Source: Xenophilus sp. L33
GTDB taxonomy: Bacteria; Pseudomonadota; Gammaproteobacteria; Burkholderiales; Burkholderiaceae_C
Length of the DNA stretch: 64,000 bases
Assembly (NCBI RefSeq): GCF_009765735.1
Contig: NZ_LMUW01000049.1
Location: 1 to 64,000 of the forward strand
Direction: 5' to 3'
The notes beneath the pieces are model-generated. The model made no database searches. It had not been told where the DNA came from and saw only the letters and a program-made list of their open reading frames with translations. This document shows, piece by piece, positions 52,592-61,330 of the stretch. How positions within the stretch are numbered: position 1 is the stretch's first letter; the number at the start of each line of letters is the position of its first letter. The position numbers were made by a program, and so were the translations under genes.

Positions 52592-53884
52592 TCAAGCCAC
52601 GACGCGGGTCGAAGGCTTCGATTTCTCACCTGCTGTCGCCCGCATCGACCGCAACTCGTCGATCCGCTCCGCCAGGTACGTGGCGTCCCGCGCCACCCCC
52701 GAGAAGCGCCCCGAGCCCCAGGTGTGCAGCCACGGCAGGCCGAGGAAGTAGAGGCCGGGCACGCCGGTCACGCCGCGCAGGTGCACCGGCTCGCCGCGGC
52801 CGTTGAAGACCGGGGCGTCGACCCAGGCGAAGTCGGGCAGGAAGCCGATGCACCAGACCACGCTGGTGATGCCGGAGGCGCGCAGGCCGAGCGTGGTGCG
52901 CTCCTCCTTCGGCTCCCAGACCGGCTGGTAGACCTCGCCCGGCGGCGCCTCGATGCCGTTGGCGGCGATGTAGCGGTCGATCGAGGCGTTGATGCCGTTG
53001 AAGATGCCGTCGGCGTGGTCGAGGTGCGCGCGCAGGTTGGGCTGGAACTGCAGGGTGTCGCCGTCGAGGCCGGTCATCAGGCCGTACAGCTCCATGCCCT
53101 CGGCGGCGAAGCGGCGCAGGTCGATGTCGCGGCCGCCGTCGCGGCCGGTGACGTAGTGGTTGGTGTTGTCTCGCACGCCTTCGCGCAGCGGATGCTGGGT
53201 CACCGGCATGTCGTAGTAGTTCATGTCGGCCAGCCAGTCGACCACGTCCTTGCCGCGGTAGAAGCGCGCGCAGCGCGGCGCGTTGCCGGTGGCCAGGTAG
53301 ACCTTGCGGCCGGCCAGGTGCAGGTCCTCTGCGATCTGCGCGCCCGACTGGCCGCAGCCGACCACCAGCACCGCGCCTTCGGGCAGCTGCGCCGGGTTGC
53401 GGTATTGCGCCGAGTGGTATTGGGCGATGGACGGCGGCAGCCGCTCGGCCATGCGCGGCACCACCGGCTTGTGATAGCCGCCCGAGGCCACCACCACCTG
53501 GTCGGCGGTGAAGTTGCCGGCGCTGGTCTCGACCGCGTAGCGGTCCGACTCGCCGGTGCGCGAGACCTTCTCGACCGACACGCCCTCGATCGCCGGCGCC
53601 TGCACGTGCTCGACGAAGCCGGCCAGCCAGGCGTTGATCTCGTCCTTGACCATGAAGCCGTGCGGATCGGTGCCCTGGTAGGACCAGCCCGGCAGGTTGC
53701 ATTGCCAGTTGGGCGTGACCAGGCAGAAGGAATCCCAGCGCTGGGTGCGCCAGCTGTGCACCAGGTGGCGCTTCTCGATCACGAGGTGGTCGATGCCGCG
53801 CTGCTGCAGGCAGTGGCTGAGCGACAGGCCGGACTGGCCGCCGCCGACGATGATGACGCTGTAGTGGGTGGGTCGGGTGTTCAT
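52592..53884 (-). CDS. MSMEG_0569-family flavin-dependent oxidoreductase (Nit1C)
   Basis: 430 residues from ATG 53884. Two dinucleotide folds: FAD site VIIVGGGQSGLSLS (about 10-23) and NADPH-type VLVVGCGQSGAQIAEDL in the middle, as in flavin monooxygenases. The WDSFCLVTPNWQCNLPGW segment is characteristic of the nitrilase-cluster type. It is the last gene of an eight-gene operon. In the cyanide-assimilation clusters of pseudomonads the flavoprotein is among the conserved members; its reaction is not established. Confidence 0.88.
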   Translation of the reverse strand: MNTRPTHYSVIIVGGGQSGLSLSHCLQQRGIDHLVIEKRHLVHSWRTQRWDSFCLVTPNWQCNLPGWSYQGTDPHGFMVKDEINAWLAGFVEHVQAPAIEGVSVEKVSRTGESDRYAVETSAGNFTADQVVVASGGYHKPVVPRMAERLPPSIAQYHSAQYRNPAQLPEGAVLVVGCGQSGAQIAEDLHLAGRKVYLATGNAPRCARFYRGKDVVDWLADMNYYDMPVTQHPLREGVRDNTNHYVTGRDGGRDIDLRRFAAEGMELYGLMTGLDGDTLQFQPNLRAHLDHADGIFNGINASIDRYIAANGIEAPPGEVYQPVWEPKEERTTLGLRASGITSVVWCIGFLPDFAWVDAPVFNGRGEPVHLRGVTGVPGLYFLGLPWLHTWGSGRFSGVARDATYLAERIDELRSMRATAGEKSKPSTRVVA

Positions 53885-53919
53885 GGAAAAGCCTCCGGGA
53901 GTGCCGGTGTGGTGTGAAG

Positions 53920-54204
53920 TCAATCGAAGCGCAGGACGGTGACCTGCGGATCGGGCCTGGATTCGAAGCGGCTCGCGATGGCCTCGATTTCCGCGAGTTG
54001 GTCCATCGCCTGGGAGCAGGCGAAGCCGTACTTGGCGCGCACCCGCTCGGAGGCGATGCCGAGCGCCTCGCGGGTGCGGGCCACGAAGTCGTCGAGCGCA
54101 TAGGCCTGGCCGGGCAGCAGGAAGTCCTGCACCACCAGCGAGGGCGAGTAGCAACGGGTCTCGCTGCTGTCGGGCCAGCGGACGTGGAAATGCATGACGG
54201 GCAC
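53920..54204 (-). CDS. MSMEG_0570-family small protein (Nit1C)
   Basis: 94 residues. MHFHVRWPDSSETRCYSPS, VQDFLLPGQAYALDDFVART and the ending VTVLRFD are the signature of a short protein found only in nitrilase (Nit1C) clusters and named for nitrogen-starvation response. The function is unknown. It lies 11 bp after the glycosyltransferase stop and 35 bp before the oxidoreductase. Confidence 0.87.
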   Translation of the reverse strand: MPVMHFHVRWPDSSETRCYSPSLVVQDFLLPGQAYALDDFVARTREALGIASERVRAKYGFACSQAMDQLAEIEAIASRFESRPDPQVTVLRFD

Positions 54205-54215
54205 GGAGCGCTCCT

Positions 54216-55427
54216 TCAGGTCGTGACGCAGTCTTCGAGCCGCGCGCGCTGGGCGCGGGCGAGCCCTTGCCGGTACAGGTGGATGTGGCGGGCAGCGCTG
54301 GCCGGCCAGCTGAAGCGCTCGGCCAGTCGCGCCGCGGAGGCGGCGATGCGGTGCGGATCGCGCACCGCAATCGCGGTGTGCACCGCGTCGGCGATCGATG
54401 CCGCATCGAGCGGATCGGCCCAGTGCACCTCGCCGTCGCGCAGGTATTCGGTGAAGGGGGCGATGCGCGAGACCACCACCGGCGCGCCGCTGGCCAGCGC
54501 CTCCAGCACCACCAGCCCGAAGCCTTCGTTGAGCGAAGGCATGGCGACCGCGTCGGCCAGCCGGTAGAGCGCGGGCATCTCCGCATCGGCCAGCGTGCCG
54601 GTGAGCACGATCGGCTGGCCCTGACCGATGGCGAGGCCGGCCGCCGCGGCGGTCGCTGCGAAGTCGCGCTGGTACTGCGCATGGTCGAGCAGGCTGGCGC
54701 CGCCGGCGATCACCAGTTGCGCCTCGGGCGACTGCGCCCGGAAGCGGATGAAGGCCTGCAGCAGGCGCAGCGTGTTCTTGCGTTCCTCGACGCCGCCGAC
54801 CGCCAGCAGCACCGGCGCGCCCCTGCGCACGCCGAGCCGCCGCGCCAGCACGGCGTCGGCCGCCTCGGGCGCGGGACCGAAGCGCTCGGCGTCGATGCCG
54901 TTGGCCACTTCCTCCACCACCGCGCCGTGTTCGCCCGCCAGCTTGTCGCGCCAGAGCCGGCTCACGCAGAACAGCTGGCTCGCGCTGCGCCAGCCGCGCG
55001 CCTGCCAGGCCATCAACTGCGGCGCCTCGAAATGCTCCAGGTGATGCACCGTGCGGACGAAGCCGTCGATCAGGCCTTGCGCCTGCAGGTCGGCCAGCGC
55101 ATTGGCGCCGATCGGGTCCTGTGCATGCAGCACGTCGAAATGCGCACGCGGGCGCAGCGCGGCGATCGTGCTGCGGAAGGCCTCGATGCGCGTGCCGACC
55201 ATCTCGACCATGTCGCGCGGCGCCGGCGCGGCCGGCACCATGCAGGTGGCGCAGCGCACCGGCCGGAAGAATTCCTGGCCCTTCGATGCCGGCGCGAACA
55301 CGGTCACCCGATGGCCGGCGTCGTGCAGCGCATGGGCCAGCTCCAGCGTGTGGACCACGCCGCCGCGCGGATTCACCGAATGGGTCAGGAGGCCGATGCG
55401 CAGCGGCCGCGGCGCGACGTCACGCAT
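54216..55427 (-). CDS. MSMEG_0565-family glycosyltransferase (Nit1C)
   Basis: 403 residues, a GT4/GT-B glycosyltransferase: N-terminal GLLTHSVNPRGGVVHTLELA with the Gly-rich loop, an EXE-like PSLNEGFGLVVLEALASGAP in the C-terminal half that binds the nucleotide sugar, and LLAVGGVEERKN. Its start overlaps the AIR-synthase-like stop by eight bases. Glycosyltransferases are found in some Nit1C clusters but not the original seven-gene set; the acceptor is unknown. Confidence 0.88.
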   Translation of the reverse strand: MRDVAPRPLRIGLLTHSVNPRGGVVHTLELAHALHDAGHRVTVFAPASKGQEFFRPVRCATCMVPAAPAPRDMVEMVGTRIEAFRSTIAALRPRAHFDVLHAQDPIGANALADLQAQGLIDGFVRTVHHLEHFEAPQLMAWQARGWRSASQLFCVSRLWRDKLAGEHGAVVEEVANGIDAERFGPAPEAADAVLARRLGVRRGAPVLLAVGGVEERKNTLRLLQAFIRFRAQSPEAQLVIAGGASLLDHAQYQRDFAATAAAAGLAIGQGQPIVLTGTLADAEMPALYRLADAVAMPSLNEGFGLVVLEALASGAPVVVSRIAPFTEYLRDGEVHWADPLDAASIADAVHTAIAVRDPHRIAASAARLAERFSWPASAARHIHLYRQGLARAQRARLEDCVTT

Positions 55428-56418
55428 GGAGCGCCTGCGCTTCGGCAGCCTCGCAGATGAAGGCGTCGCGGTTCAGGTCCCACAGCAGTTCGCGCTCGCC
55501 GCCCTGCCGCAGGTTCAGGGTGCGCGAGTCGTCGACCTCGCCGATCACGCCGCAGGCGATGTCGCGGGCGGCGAAGCGGGTCAGCACCTCGCCGAGCCGG
55601 TCGGGCCGCACGCTGAGGATGAAGCCGAAGCTCGGGAAGGCGCTGAGCCAGCGCAGGAGGTTGGTGCCTTCGGGCCGCGGGATCGCGTCGAGGTCGATGG
55701 TGGCGCCGGCCTGCGAGCATTCGAGCAGCATCAGCGCGGTGCCGATGGCGCCGGCCATGCTGATGTCCTTGGCCGCGTCGCAGAGGCCCGCCTCGGCCAG
55801 GGTCGGCAGCAGTTCGAGGTCGGCGCGCAGGCGCGCCGCCGGTGCGTGGCTGGAGGCGTCCCAGAACGGGAACGGGTCCTGGAAGGCGCCGCGCAGGTCG
55901 ACCGCCATCACCAGCAGGTCGCCGGGCCGGGCGGAGAAGCTGGTGAGCAGCTTGCGCGCGCGGCCGAGGATCGCCACCGCCAGTTGCGGGCGCAGGCTGC
56001 GCTGGTTGCTGTGGCCGCCGACGATCGGCACGCCGTACTTGGCGGCCGCCTCGGCCATGCCGGCCAGCATCTGGTCGGCATGCTGCATGCCGGCGCTCCA
56101 GATGGCGTCGACCACCGCGGTCGGGCGGCCGCCCATCGCGTAGATGTCGCTGACGTTGACCATCACGCCCGAGTAGCCGGCGAAGCGCGGCATGCGCTCG
56201 ATGAAGTCTTCCACCAGGCCCTCGATCGCGAACAGCAGGTAGCCGCCCTGCCCGTCCAGGATCGCCGCGCAGTCGTCCCCGACCGGCACCGCCTGCGCCA
56301 GGTCGGCGGCGCCGCCGGGCAGGCCGTGGCCAAGCGCGGCGACCACCGCGCTGATGTCCTTCTTGTGCGCGAAGCCGCGGCTCTCGCGCAGCGCGTCGGC
56401 GATGTCCGAGAGGCTCAT
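55420..56418 (-). CDS. Sll0787-family AIR synthase-like protein (Nit1C)
   Basis: 332 residues, ATG overlapping the stop of the acetyltransferase gene (ATGA). It is a PurM/AIR-synthase fold: GDDCAAILDGQGGYLLFAIEG with the metal/ATP-binding loop, MVNVSDIYAMGGRPTAVVDA, and LCDAAKDISMAGAIGTALML. PurM-like proteins use ATP to activate amides or formyl groups. In Nit1C it may activate the amide or acid that arises from the nitrile. Confidence 0.88.
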   Translation of the reverse strand: MSLSDIADALRESRGFAHKKDISAVVAALGHGLPGGAADLAQAVPVGDDCAAILDGQGGYLLFAIEGLVEDFIERMPRFAGYSGVMVNVSDIYAMGGRPTAVVDAIWSAGMQHADQMLAGMAEAAAKYGVPIVGGHSNQRSLRPQLAVAILGRARKLLTSFSARPGDLLVMAVDLRGAFQDPFPFWDASSHAPAARLRADLELLPTLAEAGLCDAAKDISMAGAIGTALMLLECSQAGATIDLDAIPRPEGTNLLRWLSAFPSFGFILSVRPDRLGEVLTRFAARDIACGVIGEVDDSRTLNLRQGGERELLWDLNRDAFICEAAEAQALHA

Positions 56419-56972
56419 TTCACGCTCCTCGCGCGCGAGACGAAGCCGCTGGCGGCGTCGTGGCAGGGTGGATAGAAGTCGAGCGAGGCCTGCATCTCGG
56501 TGTGCGGCCGGCCGTGGATCGACAGCTCGGCGAGGCTTCGCCAATGCAGCTTGTGGAAGAGCGGCACGTTCTGCGACTGCACGTGCGCCAGGAAGGTGTG
56601 GCAGCCCTGCGCATTGGCACGCGACACCGCCAGCCGGATCAGGGTCGCGCCCAGGTGGCCCTGGCTGCGGAAAGCCGGGTGCACCGCCAGCCGCGAGCCC
56701 CACCACAGGCCGGGCTCGGGCTGGTGGATGCGCACCGTGCCGACCAACTGGTCGGGCATGCCGCCGATGCAGGCCATCGCGACCAGCAGTTGCGCGCGCT
56801 CGTCGATCGCGTCGCGGTCGTCGCCGGCGAACAGGCCCTGCTCGATGCAGAAGACCGCGCGGCGCAGCGCGAAGGCCTCGTCACGCTCCCATTGCTGCGC
56901 GGCTTCGCGCACCAGGAACTCGACCGGCGCATAGACCGCGACCGGCTCGTCCAGATCGTCGATGCAGCTCAT
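56415..56972 (-). CDS. MSMEG_0567/Sll0786-family N-acetyltransferase (Nit1C)
   Basis: 185 residues. The GNAT fold is visible in RRAVFCIEQGLFAGDDRD (start) and RLAVHPAFRSQGHLGATLIR, the acetyl-CoA-binding A motif (Q/R-x-x-G-x-G/A variant). Its end overlaps the AIR-synthase-like ATG by four bases. The protein acylates a small amine or a nitrogen intermediate, by analogy; no substrate is known. Confidence 0.88.
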   Translation of the reverse strand: MSCIDDLDEPVAVYAPVEFLVREAAQQWERDEAFALRRAVFCIEQGLFAGDDRDAIDERAQLLVAMACIGGMPDQLVGTVRIHQPEPGLWWGSRLAVHPAFRSQGHLGATLIRLAVSRANAQGCHTFLAHVQSQNVPLFHKLHWRSLAELSIHGRPHTEMQASLDFYPPCHDAASGFVSRARSVK

Positions 56973-56988
56973 TTCGCGCTCCTTCGCT

Positions 56989-58095
56989 TCAGGACTCGTA
57001 GACCGACAGCGACGAGCAGGCGCCGCACTTGCCGCAGCCGGCCTTGATGTCGGCCGAGCGCAGCCGGGCCGCCGACACGCTCTGCCCGAGCGGCTCGAGG
57101 ATCGACTTCATGAACTCGGGCGACGGGGCCGGATGGTCTTCGAGCGGCGTGCCGCTGATCGGCACGAAGGGCACCACGAAGGGATAGACGCCGATCGCCA
57201 GCAGCTGGTCGCAGATCTGCAGGATCTCCTCGCGGCTGTCGCCCAGCCCGGCCAGGATGTAGGTGCTGACCTGGCCGCGGCCGAAGACGCCGACCGCCGC
57301 CTCGAAGGCGCTCATGTAGCGCGACACCGGCACCGTCGCCTTGCCCGGCATGATGCGTTCGCGCACGGCCTGCGACACCACCTCCAGGTGCATGCCGAGC
57401 GTGTCGATGCCGGCTGCGTGCATTCGGTGGAACCACTGGTCGTCGTCCGGCGGCTCGCACTGGCCCTGGATCGGGATGTCGACCGCGGCCTTGATCGCGA
57501 AGGCGCTCTCGCACAGGATGGCGGCGCCGCGGTCGGTGGCGTTCGGCGTGCCGGTGGTCATGACCATGTGCTTGACGCCGTCGAGCAGCACCGCGGCGCG
57601 GGCCACCTCGGCCAGTTGCTCCGGCGTCTTGCGGGCGATGGTGCGGCCGGCCGCCAGCGACTGGCCGATCGCGCAGAACTTGCAGCTCTTCTTCCGGCTC
57701 TCGTAGCGGATGCAGGTCTGCAGCACCGTGGTGGCCAGCACGTCGGCGCCGTGCAGGGTCGCGATGTGCGAATAGGGCACGCCGTCGAAGGTCTGCATCC
57801 GGTAGAAGCGCGGCTGCTTCGGGAAGCTGATGTTCGCGATCGGGATGCTGCCGCGCATCACCCGGCTCACGCCTTGCGCGTCGGGCGCCTCGGCGGTGAA
57901 GGGCGAGCTCCAGGCGGTCGAGGTGTGGACCGGCACCATGATCGTGTGGCCGTCGACCGTGACCGCCTTGTGGTCCGACGGCCCGGCGCCGCCGCGCCGG
58001 CTCGAAGCGCCCGCGCTCGGATCAACCAGCCGCAACCCGAAGGACTGCAACTCGGTCATCAACTGCCGGCTGGACGGGATCGTGGTGGGGTTCAT
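56989..58095 (-). CDS. MSMEG_0568-family radical SAM protein (Nit1C)
   Basis: 368 residues from ATG 58095. A (beta/alpha) barrel with an unusual iron-sulphur ligand spacing: C128-x9-C138-x2-C141 ([18 protein letters not shown]) instead of CxxxCxxC. The C-terminus adds [10 protein letters not shown], candidates for a second cluster. Its first 74 bases overlap the nitrilase gene in another frame. This family occurs only in nitrilase clusters; a role in modifying the nitrogen substrate is likely. Confidence 0.88.
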
Positions 58096-59077
58096 GGCGG
58101 GTGCTCCGGAGGTCGGTGGAAGGGGTGTCCGCGGCCGGCATCGGCAGCGTGGTGCTGGCAGGGCGTTCGTTGATCGCCAGGGAAAGGAGTTCGGGCCGGG
58201 CGTAGTGGCCGACCGAATCCATCATTCGCTTGCGCTTGGTGATCAGCGCCATGTCGAGGTCGGCGATCAGCATGCCTTCGCCCTCGGTCAGCGGTGGCGC
58301 CAGGTGCTTGCCTTCGGGCGAGACGATCGCGGTGTGGCAGCCGCCGCGCAGCGCCTTCTGCAGGCCGGCGTCGGGGGTGATCGCCTGGATCTGCGCATCG
58401 GTCAGCCAGCCGGTGGCGTTGATCACGAAGCAGCCCGACTCCAGCGCGTGATGGCGGATGGTGACTTCCATCTGCTCGGCGAAGATCGGGCCCACCAGCG
58501 AGCCCGGGAACTGCGCGCAGTGGATCTCCTCGTGCTGCGCCATCAGCGCGTAGCGGGCCAGCGGGTTGTAGTGCTCCCAGCAGGCCAGCGCGCCGACGCG
58601 GCCGACCCGCGTGTCGACCACCTTGAGGCCGGCGCCGTCGCCCTGGCCCCAGACCATGCGCTCGTGGTAGGTCGGCGTGATCTTGCGGCGCTTGAGCACC
58701 ATGCTGCCGTCGGCGTCGAAGACCAGCTGCGTGTTGTAGAGGCTGCCGTGGTCGCGCTCGTTGACGCCGAGCACCACCACGACGCCGCGGGCACGGGCCC
58801 GCTCGGCGACGGCCAGGGTCACCGGCCCCGGCACCGCCACCGCCCGCTCCATCAGCCGGATGTGGGCCGGCCCCTGCAGCACCGGCGGCTGCACGAAGGA
58901 GAAGTACGGGTAGTAGGGCACGAAGGTCTCGGGAAAGACCACGATCTGCGCGCCCTTGGAAGCGGCCTCGTCGATCGCCTCGCAGACCCGGTTCAAGGTG
59001 CCGTCGGGCGCCTCGAAGTCCGGCGCGATCTGGACCGCGGCGGCACGGACGATGCGGGAAGTTCCGGAGGTGGTCAT
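58022..59077 (-). CDS. Nit6803-type nitrilase (Nit1C)
   Basis: 351 residues from ATG 59077. The nitrilase triad is complete: Glu50 in [15 protein letters not shown], Lys132 in [11 protein letters not shown], Cys166 in [17 protein letters not shown]. It hydrolyses nitriles R-CN to the acid plus ammonia. Homologues in pseudomonads are required for growth on cyanide as nitrogen source, via 2-hydroxynitriles formed from cyanide and keto acids. The C-terminal tail (about 25 residues) runs into the radical SAM gene. Confidence 0.92.
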
Positions 59078-59091
59078 GGCCGCCTCTCGCC

Positions 59092-59574
59092 TCACAGGGT
59101 CCAGGTGTCGAGGATGAAGGCGTTGGCCTTGCGGTGCAGCAGGATGATGTCCAGCACGTCGAGCGGGTTGATCGGCTTGATGCCTTCGATCAGCGCGCCT
59201 TCGCCGTGGCCGTAAAGCGCCTGCAGCGCGAAGCGGCAGGCGTAGACCTTGCCGCCCTCTTCCATGAACTTCGTGATCTGCTTGTTGAAGTTCTGGTGGC
59301 CCGGGAAGGCCTCGTCGCCGAGCGTCGGGAAGCCGCGCTGAACGCCCAGCGTCACGCCCGGGCCGTACAGCAGGATGGAGGTCTCGAAGCCCTTGCGCTT
59401 CAGGCGTGTCGCCTGCAGCAGGTTGACGAAGCCGATCGAGCCTTCGAAGGCCACGGTGTGGAAGGTGACCAGCGCTTTCTCGCCGGGCTCGGCCTTCACG
59501 TCCTCGAAGACCTTCTCTTCGTAGTCGACCAGGTGTTCGCCGGACACGTTCTTGGGTTTGGTGACGATGGGCAT
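59092..59574 (-). CDS. MSMEG_0572/Sll0783-family protein (Nit1C, first gene)
   Basis: 160 residues from ATG 59574. [40 protein letters not shown] and HKANAF-type ending [10 protein letters not shown] identify the small protein that begins nitrilase clusters and that is upregulated on nitrogen starvation in cyanobacteria. The fold resembles DsrE/peroxiredoxin-like small proteins. It opens the operon; the MocR gene starts 364 bp away in the opposite direction. Confidence 0.9.
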
Positions 59575-59938
59575 TGAATGACTCCGATGGTGAAAGATTG
59601 AATGGATGGGTTGCGCGCCCTTTTCATTCGCATGCGATGTGCCAGCCGCGCGGCGCCCGGATGCGATCAATGCGCGATCAATGCGCCTGCACGCCATCCG
59701 CGGCACCGAAAATTTTTTTGGCGGCCTCTTCCGACGGGCTCCAGCAGCGGTTCGGACGCGGTTTTCGCACTCGATCGATGCGTTTTCGATGCGATCAATG
59801 CACCCGATCAAGGGTCGTTCATGCACGCGATCCATGCATCCAGGGCCTGGCGCGACGTCCGGCGGCCGGCATGCTTCATGCATTCATTCGACGGCATCGA
59901 TGCAATCAATGGATGCGATCAACTCAAGGCCACCCACC
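59575..59938. promoter_or_regulatory. repeat-rich control region between Nit1C operon and MocR gene
   Basis: No gene in these 364 bp. The 12-mer GCGATCAATGCG and close variants occur at 59663-59674, 59674-59685 (direct repeat, 11 bp), 59791-59802, 59827-59838 (one mismatch beyond A/G end), 59902-59913, 59915-59926 and 59771-59782 (two mismatches). Spacings of one turn and multiple copies fit cooperative binding of a dimeric GntR/MocR regulator. Promoters for both flanking units should lie here but I could not fix a -35/-10 pair. Confidence 0.75.
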
Positions 59939-61330
59939 ATGGACAAGAACACCCAGCGCTGGCAGAAGCGCCTCGAGGCCAGCGACCGGCCGGCCTACCT
60001 GCTCCTGGCCGACCTGCTCGGCGAGGACATCCGCACCGGCCGCCTCACGGCGCGCGACAAGCTGCCGACCCTGCGCGACCTGGCGGCCGACCTGCGGCTG
60101 AACTACACGACGGTCGCCCGCGGCTATGCCGAGGCCCGCAAGCGCGGCCTGATCGACTCGCGCGCCGGCACCGGCACCTTCATCCGCGGCACCAGCCCGG
60201 CGGTGCCGCTGCGTGGCGGCAGCGGCGCCGAGATGACCATGAACCTGCCGCCGGAGCCGCAGGACGCCGCCCTGCTGGAGCGCATGCACGAGAGCGCCGC
60301 CCGCCTGATGGGCGAGACCGACCTCTACAGCCTGCTGCGCTACCAGGACTTCGGCGGTTCGGCGCGCGACCGCGAGGCCGCCATGGCCTGGCTGCGCCCG
60401 CGGGTGCCGGACTGCACCATCGACCAGATGCTGGTCTGCCCCGGCATCCACAGCGTGCTGGCCGCGCTGTTCTCGCAGCTGGCGCGCCCGGGCGAGCTGA
60501 TCTGCGTCGAGGCGCTGACCTACCCCGGCGTGAAGGCGATCGCGACCCAGCTGGGCATCCAGCTGCATGCGCTGCCGCTGGACGAGGAAGGACCGATGGG
60601 CGAATCCTTCGAGCACGCCTGCAAGACGCTCAAGCCGAAGGCGCTCTACATCAACCCCACGTTGAACAACCCGACCACCGCGACCGTCTCGCGGGCCCGG
60701 CGCGAGGCCCTGGCGGACATCGCGCTGCGCTTCGCGATCCCGATCATCGAGGACGACGCCTATGCGCTGCTGCCGCGCCAGATGCCGCCCACGCTCGCGA
60801 CCCTGGCCCCCGACCTCACCTACTACATCACCGGCTTCTCGAAGACGCTGGGCGCGGGCCTGCGCAACGCTTACGTGCGCTCACCGAGCGCGCGGCAGTC
60901 GCAGCGGCTGGCCGGCGCGCTGCGCGCCACCACCGTGATGGCCTCGCCGATCACCAACGCGCTGTCGACCCTGTGGGTCGAGGACGGCACCGCCGAGTCG
61001 ATGCTGCAGGCGGTGCGCAACGAATCCAACGCCCGCCAGGTGCTGGCGCTCAAGCACCTGGGGCCCTACGGCGTGGTGGCGCCGAGCGACTGCTTCCATC
61101 TCTGGCTGCCGCTCAGCTCGGCCTGGAGCATGGTCGAGTTCGCATCCTTCCTGCGCACCCGCAACGTCGGCGTGGTCGCCAGCGTGGCCTTCTCGACCGA
61201 CAGCATGCCGCCGGAGGCGGTACGGATCTGCCTGGGTGGCCCGATGTCACGCGACGAATGCGACGACGCGCTGCGGCTGATCGCGGACACGCTGGCGCAC
61301 CCGATGCATCCGCACGCGACGGTGATGTGA
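59939..61330 (+). CDS. MocR-type GntR regulator with aminotransferase domain
   Basis: 463 residues. A GntR winged helix (DKLPTLRDLAADLRLNYTTVARGYAEA, about 42-68) is fused to a fold-type I aminotransferase domain; the PLP Lys lies in YYITGFSKTLGAGLRN. MocR proteins sense PLP-bound amino or aldehyde ligands and activate adjacent genes. It is divergent from the Nit1C operon and the obvious regulator; the repeats between them would be its sites. Confidence 0.9.
   Translation: MDKNTQRWQKRLEASDRPAYLLLADLLGEDIRTGRLTARDKLPTLRDLAADLRLNYTTVARGYAEARKRGLIDSRAGTGTFIRGTSPAVPLRGGSGAEMTMNLPPEPQDAALLERMHESAARLMGETDLYSLLRYQDFGGSARDREAAMAWLRPRVPDCTIDQMLVCPGIHSVLAALFSQLARPGELICVEALTYPGVKAIATQLGIQLHALPLDEEGPMGESFEHACKTLKPKALYINPTLNNPTTATVSRARREALADIALRFAIPIIEDDAYALLPRQMPPTLATLAPDLTYYITGFSKTLGAGLRNAYVRSPSARQSQRLAGALRATTVMASPITNALSTLWVEDGTAESMLQAVRNESNARQVLALKHLGPYGVVAPSDCFHLWLPLSSAWSMVEFASFLRTRNVGVVASVAFSTDSMPPEAVRICLGGPMSRDECDDALRLIADTLAHPMHPHATVM

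Follow-up and report, generated by a model that had tools for sequence, protein, structure and literature searches.

The betaproteobacterial Nit1C nitrilase cluster described by Podar et al. in 2005 has a glycosyltransferase gene between genes 5 and 6 (Burkholderia, Rubrivivax) and a flavoprotein gene last (PMC1199592). We found the same kinds of genes, in the same order and strand arrangement, in a 64,000-nt stretch from Xenophilus sp. L33 (GCF_009765735.1, contig NZ_LMUW01000049.1, positions 1-64,000; the window), whose own genome measures 6.9 Mb. To the 2005 description, the window adds a paired MocR-type regulator gene and a conserved tandem repeat between regulator and cluster. The nit1C locus of Pseudomonas pseudoalcaligenes/oleovorans CECT5344 shares with the window the core genes (nitB-nitH) and a divergent upstream regulator gene, but its regulator NitA is a Fis-family sigma-54-dependent protein rather than a MocR, and the accessible portion of that report names no glycosyltransferase, whereas the window cluster has one (PMC11049912). 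The gpr cluster of Mycobacterium smegmatis, MSMEG_0565-0572, likewise comprises eight open reading frames; in contrast to the MocR pairing of the window, it is under GlnR control and its reported phenotype is peroxide resistance (PMC6039565). Six of the eight NCBIfam models matched here are named after MSMEG_0565-0572 genes, a likeness that lies in the model names. On the regulator side, MpaR of Pseudomonas aeruginosa is, like the window protein, of the GntR/MocR type with a predicted pyridoxal phosphate (PLP) lysine, and acts on adjacent genes with cyanide as signal; it differs in activating respiratory genes, not Nit1C, and in its motif, ATCTGAT (PMC10790758). The MocR of the CECT5344 cio cluster is also divergent from a cyanide-related cluster, but it is tied to cio/nit4 instead of nit1C and is apparently a repressor (PMC8567248).

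In our data, one MocR lineage is paired almost strictly with the Nit1C cluster, and tandem repeats stand at a near-fixed distance from the first gene of the cluster in wider kin. We consider it about evenly balanced whether the locus is a complete Nit1C operon that takes nitrogen from cyanide-derived nitriles and is controlled by MocR through tandem GATCAA repeats. The genes are as follows, with start positions that are our choice among open reading frames:

52592..53884, minus strand: MSMEG_0569 family flavin-dependent oxidoreductase, last gene (TIGR04046, 676.3 bits; cut-off 498.35)
53920..54204, minus strand: MSMEG_0570 family small protein, GTG start (TIGR04042, 136.6 bits; cut-off 79.85; no Pfam family)
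54216..55427, minus strand: MSMEG_0565 family GT4 glycosyltransferase (TIGR04047, 493.2 bits; cut-off 259.85; glycosyltransferase Pfam domains)
55420..56418, minus strand: sll0787 family AIR synthase-like protein (TIGR04049, 473.7 bits; cut-off 321.3; AIRS and AIRS_C)
56415..56972, minus strand: MSMEG_0567/Sll0786 family GNAT acetyltransferase (TIGR04045, 233.9 bits; cut-off 68.45)
56989..58095, minus strand: MSMEG_0568 family radical SAM protein (TIGR04043, 610.5 bits; cut-off 303.7)
58022..59077, minus strand: Nit6803 family nitrilase (TIGR04048, 586.9 bits; cut-off 502.6)
59092..59574, minus strand: MSMEG_0572/Sll0783 family protein, first gene (TIGR04044, 282.6 bits; cut-off 109.85)
59939..61330, plus strand: MocR-type regulator with GntR helix-turn-helix and aminotransferase-like domains (PF00392, 39.2 bits, cut-off 27; PF00155, 81.2 bits, cut-off 19.7)

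Positions 52592-59574 hold a complete eight-gene Nit1C cluster, as the initial annotation had claimed: all eight proteins, including those of the seven core families, exceed the curated NCBIfam cut-offs, and all genes lie on the minus strand in the order proposed. Neighbouring genes are separated by at most 35 bp or overlap (nitrilase and radical SAM genes by 74 bp, the largest overlap; AIR-like and glycosyltransferase genes by 8 bp; GNAT and AIR-like genes by 4 bp), and the eight genes are likely one operon. The nitrilase aligns with the solved nitrilase 3WUY over 307 residues at 508.6 bits, the next solved match scoring 229.3. By gene content, this cluster is already known and ordinary.

A 364-bp intergenic region separates the first gene from the MocR gene. 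Lysine 302 of MocR, which we take to be the PLP-holding lysine of aminotransferases, is kept in all 74 aligned sequences and matches the SK(T/I) stretch of solved aminotransferases. In the own genome, the MocR search gave no further match down to E 1e-20. Two other assignments were rejected: the ectoine regulator EhuR (NF052286), for which the window protein scores 372 bits, under the cut-off of 480, and a NitA-type (sigma-54) gene, in place of which a MocR-type gene stands divergent from the first gene. A limited literature search found no description of a Nit1C-paired MocR regulator and its operator.

The pairing was measured in three samples. In the family set (250 genomes from the window's family), the cluster was scored as present by its first gene (TIGR04044 above cut-off), and MocR was then searched at E 1e-60. 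MocR occurred at 52-100% identity in 31 genomes, the next best match elsewhere having 39%. All 30 genomes with the first gene had MocR, compared with 1 of the 220 others, and in all 30 it was divergent and adjacent, 296-477 bp away from alignment to alignment; one of them (G175) has a TGA within the MocR frame. The sole exception, G105, has MocR next to an MFS-type transporter gene and no cluster gene in the 16 kb inspected. In the first set, the best 80 loci of 429 confirmed relatives in public records and hence biased to near kin, MocR was divergent and adjacent in 66, downstream on the same strand in 6, non-adjacent in 1 and not found in 7, including one (L044) whose contig ends 453 bp upstream. 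The phylum set of 398 genomes included 16 with TIGR04044 above cut-off, two of them (the window's own and G122) common to the family set, and divergent MocR was present in 15 of the 16. In all 14 phylum-only loci the first gene is accompanied by matches to the nitrilase, radical SAM, GNAT, AIR-like, 0570 and 0569 families, and 13 have divergent MocR; in G437 the place of MocR is taken by another frame, whose opening reads by eye like a PAS protein and which would fit the NitA arrangement.

Judged from a tree of 76 MocRs, the Nit1C-linked regulators appear as one lineage: a branch with support of 99 splits 39 of them, together with the G105 orphan, from 36 paralogs. This tree was built by a quick method with Shimodaira-Hasegawa-like approximate likelihood ratio test (SH-aLRT) support only, and several paralogs are long branches. 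Its Nit1C-linked rows are the window, 13 phylum-set loci and 25 first-set loci, hand-picked for spread from the 73 in which MocR was matched, the other 48 being left out. In the Methyloversatilis-type loci L012, L021 and L033, the relocated MocR gene is separated from the flavoprotein gene by an uncharacterised frame of about 290-300 residues.

The sequence GATCAATGC recurs in the intergenic region of the window, forming tandem GATCAA direct repeats at the following sites:

59660..59684, plus strand: third pair of GATCAATGC half-sites with 11-bp spacing (direct repeat family D1), 85 bp from the first gene
59789..59812, plus strand: main tandem operator-like site, score 37.1, the best in the window, 214 bp upstream of the ATG of the first gene
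59900..59923, plus strand: second tandem operator-like site, score 31.0, with 2 mismatches to the pattern, 15 bp ahead of the MocR ATG

Operators of MocR regulators consist of two to four repeated sequences (PMC5320631); the window sequence has tandem repeats, which are putative sites of MocR binding. The scoring model describes a direct repeat spaced by 13 bp with the consensus ATGCGATCAATGCACCCGATCAAT and was trained on 67 intergenic regions (66 loci and the window); the pair at 59660..59684, with its 11-bp spacing, is outside its reach. In these 67 regions the 8-mer ATTGATCG occurs in 53, and in 30 shuffles no 8-mer occurred in more than 18. The site at 59789..59812 is the only exact match to the pattern in the own genome; with up to 2 mismatches only the two intergenic sites here are found, and one more appears with 3.

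At a score of 20, 47 of the 80 first-set loci together carry 66 sites in their upstream regions (33,181 bp), compared with a single site in 1,391,017 bp elsewhere; at 16, 51 of 80 loci have a site and 6 sites lie elsewhere. In the family set, 28 of 30 loci score at least 16; after removal of the window and of loci that duplicate training loci, 20 of 21 do. The six loci with relocated MocR, which are outside the training regions, all retain a site 221-234 bp ahead of the first gene (scores 32.8-39.1), and nothing scoring above 2.7 was found in the 400 bp preceding their MocR genes. Where no MocR was found, the six clusters whose contigs do not end nearby reach no more than 8.8; the cut locus L044 scores 35.1. 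The locus with a non-adjacent MocR (L073) scores 10.7, and the orphan MocR of G105 retains a related repeat scoring 14.0.

These data suggest a scheme in which MocR, bound at 59789-59812, would control the cluster and, bound at 59900-59923, its own gene. Its aminotransferase-like domain would carry PLP on lysine 302 and may sense cyanide, as the PLP-cyanide adduct proposed for MpaR, or a related amino-nitrile. According to the Pseudomonas literature, cyanide forms a 2-hydroxynitrile without an enzyme, and the nitrilase then releases ammonia and a carboxylic acid from it by hydrolysis. We infer a cyanide- or nitrile-responsive switch, to which the MocR gene beside the cluster lends circumstantial support. 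The initial annotation had tied Nit1C to cyanide or nitrile use. The pseudomonad literature agrees, since cyanide assimilation by CECT5344 is stated to require NitC and Nit1C is linked to that process in P. fluorescens NCIMB 11764 (PMC11049912). Because the M. smegmatis cluster gives peroxide resistance linked to nitrogen starvation, however, cyanide use is not the only reading.

Cyanide is our best guess for the MocR signal because of MpaR, the CECT5344 mocR and the oxidase-linked nearest paralogs. MpaR switches on neighbouring genes and needs endogenous cyanide for full effect; its predicted PLP lysine is required for activity, and its authors hypothesise that the signal is a PLP-cyanide adduct (PMC10790758). 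In the CECT5344 mocR mutant, the cio cluster with nit4 is constitutive, which is cited there as unpublished data, and growth on 3-cyanoalanine is improved (PMC8567248). The paralogs nearest to the Nit1C-linked lineage (L193, L194, L196 and L197) are divergent from a DUF983 gene at all four loci, and cytochrome bd oxidase genes come next at two of them. A broader proposal may be made, although we lean slightly against it: Pseudomonadota Nit1C would be run by one dedicated cyanide-sensing MocR lineage, whose sisters are MocRs adjoining cytochrome bd oxidase genes, cyanide-tolerant respiration and cyanide assimilation would both be turned on by one kind of vitamin-B6 sensor, and sigma-54 control in Pseudomonas would be the exception. 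Amino compounds tied to nitrogen status are possible signals too, because in M. smegmatis the cluster is targeted by GlnR and its phenotype concerns redox state.

Other MocR paralogs were also divergent from DUF983 genes in all five loci inspected (L209-L213); in L209 genes for 5-aminolevulinate synthase and for the two cytochrome bd oxidase subunits come next, and in L211 a gene for oxidase subunit I. In G398 and G354, such a second, DUF983-linked MocR is found no more than about 15 kb from the Nit1C cluster.

Several observations weigh against the scheme set out above. Not every locus has the repeats: among the 72 first-set loci with adjacent or relocated MocR, 22 are without a score-16 site, as are 10 of 13 phylum-set MocR loci, including 8 of the 9 outside the window's class, and the model gives low scores to many loci from Burkholderia, Cupriavidus and alphaproteobacteria. 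The model was also trained on 67 of the regions counted, which are mutually related. The two nearest-paralog loci with oxidase genes come from one genus, the oxidase-linked sister MocRs have, by our reading, intergenic repeats of the TGTATG type instead of the window operator, and neither MpaR nor the CECT5344 MocR is in the tree. In the lysine mutant of MpaR, the amount of MpaR protein was itself reduced (PMC10790758). Moreover, Pseudomonas, where the phenotype is known, runs the cluster by NitA and not by MocR (PMC11049912), and MSMEG_0565-0572 answers to GlnR and nitrogen starvation (PMC6039565).

The last point leads to a different explanation, which we regard as possible but rather unlikely: the cluster would be a general nitrogen-starvation or redox module and not a pathway of cyanide use, and MocR would sense an amino compound, either a reporter of nitrogen status or a product of the pathway. 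GlnR induction of MSMEG_0565-0572 under nitrogen limitation is strong and is accompanied by a higher NADPH/NADP ratio (PMC6039565), Synechocystis sll0783 has been studied in nitrogen-starvation metabolism (PMC3901256), and most assigned MocR regulons concern PLP, gamma-aminobutyric acid, taurine or ectoine (PMC5320631). Such a module is at odds with the stated need for NitC in cyanide assimilation, and MocRs with a known cyanide link adjoin cyanide-related genes (PMC8567248, PMC10790758). That MocR is a mere neighbour, with the repeats serving another regulator and the adjacency inherited by chance, would suit the weak repeats of many MocR-bearing loci, and MocR binding is itself a prediction made from sequence; this is nevertheless very improbable in view of the 30 of 30 against 1 of 220 co-occurrence, the single MocR lineage, the repeats that remain at the target where MocR has relocated, and the low scores of clusters without MocR compared with that of L044.

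The initial annotation offered a further alternative, a biosynthetic cluster making a glycosylated nitrile-derived metabolite, and a run of genes for a radical SAM enzyme, a GNAT, a flavoprotein and a GT4 enzyme does resemble a biosynthetic set. The glycosyltransferase was counted in the 65 first-set loci with both flanking genes: 51 have it and 14 do not. Of the 15 loci left out, where the AIR-like or 0570 gene was not found, 10 possess the AIR-like gene, and in 4 of these 10 gene 0569 is located ahead of the first gene. On a tree of four concatenated proteins (65 loci and the window), presence of the glycosyltransferase requires at least 7 changes, compared with no fewer than 10 after shuffling. 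The earliest-branching rows, L051 and L083, possess the gene, which makes loss the simpler interpretation, although the root is only a midpoint root. Since 14 of 65 clusters are without the gene, a cluster can be retained without glycosylation of a product, and glycosylation as a requirement of the cluster is not supported. In addition, 53 of the 56 plasmid records that have a glycosyltransferase match carry names other than Klebsiella and Escherichia, leaving at most 3 for these genera; for the first gene, the corresponding numbers are 373 and 30. The biosynthetic alternative is therefore improbable in our view. The position of the gene between the AIR-like and 0570 genes was given correctly, but the words 'inserted' and 'added' are misleading for a regular member of a named family (TIGR04047) that was described in 2005 and is present in 51 of 65 clusters.

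Of 72,556 plasmid records, 508 match the first Nit1C gene (Klebsiella 373, Escherichia 30, Agrobacterium 24), and 505 match MocR at E 1e-100 (Klebsiella 369, Escherichia 30, Agrobacterium 24). These similar counts suggest that the pair travels on enterobacterial plasmids; pairing within one record was seen in NZ_CP134198.1 only, where the two genes are 404 bp apart. The ten commonest plasmid names for the first gene include Acetobacter, Acinetobacter and Komagataeibacter; the ten commonest for MocR do not.

Some proteins of the cluster have features of their own. The MSMEG_0570 family protein (53920-54204) has a confidently predicted structure with a predicted local distance difference test (pLDDT) score of 93.4, cysteine 63 and Y19-S-P-S22 are invariant in 35 aligned rows, and a search of solved structures gave no clear relative. 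The radical SAM protein (56989-58095) contains C-x9-C-x2-C, the usual spacing being C-x3-C-x2-C, and passes the NCBIfam 'variant_rSAM' model (164.4 over 125). In another genome (G169:C40:42961-47590), the MSMEG_0572-type gene occurs in two copies about 4 kb apart with equal scores.

Although Nit1C was described in 2005, most of its genes have no agreed role in the literature consulted. A paired regulator with a defined DNA site provides a direct handle, because whatever releases or recruits MocR would be the natural inducer of the cluster. If this inducer is cyanide, the present MocR lineage would widen the little-known set of bacterial cyanide sensors, and cyanide use would be predicted in many environmental bacteria.

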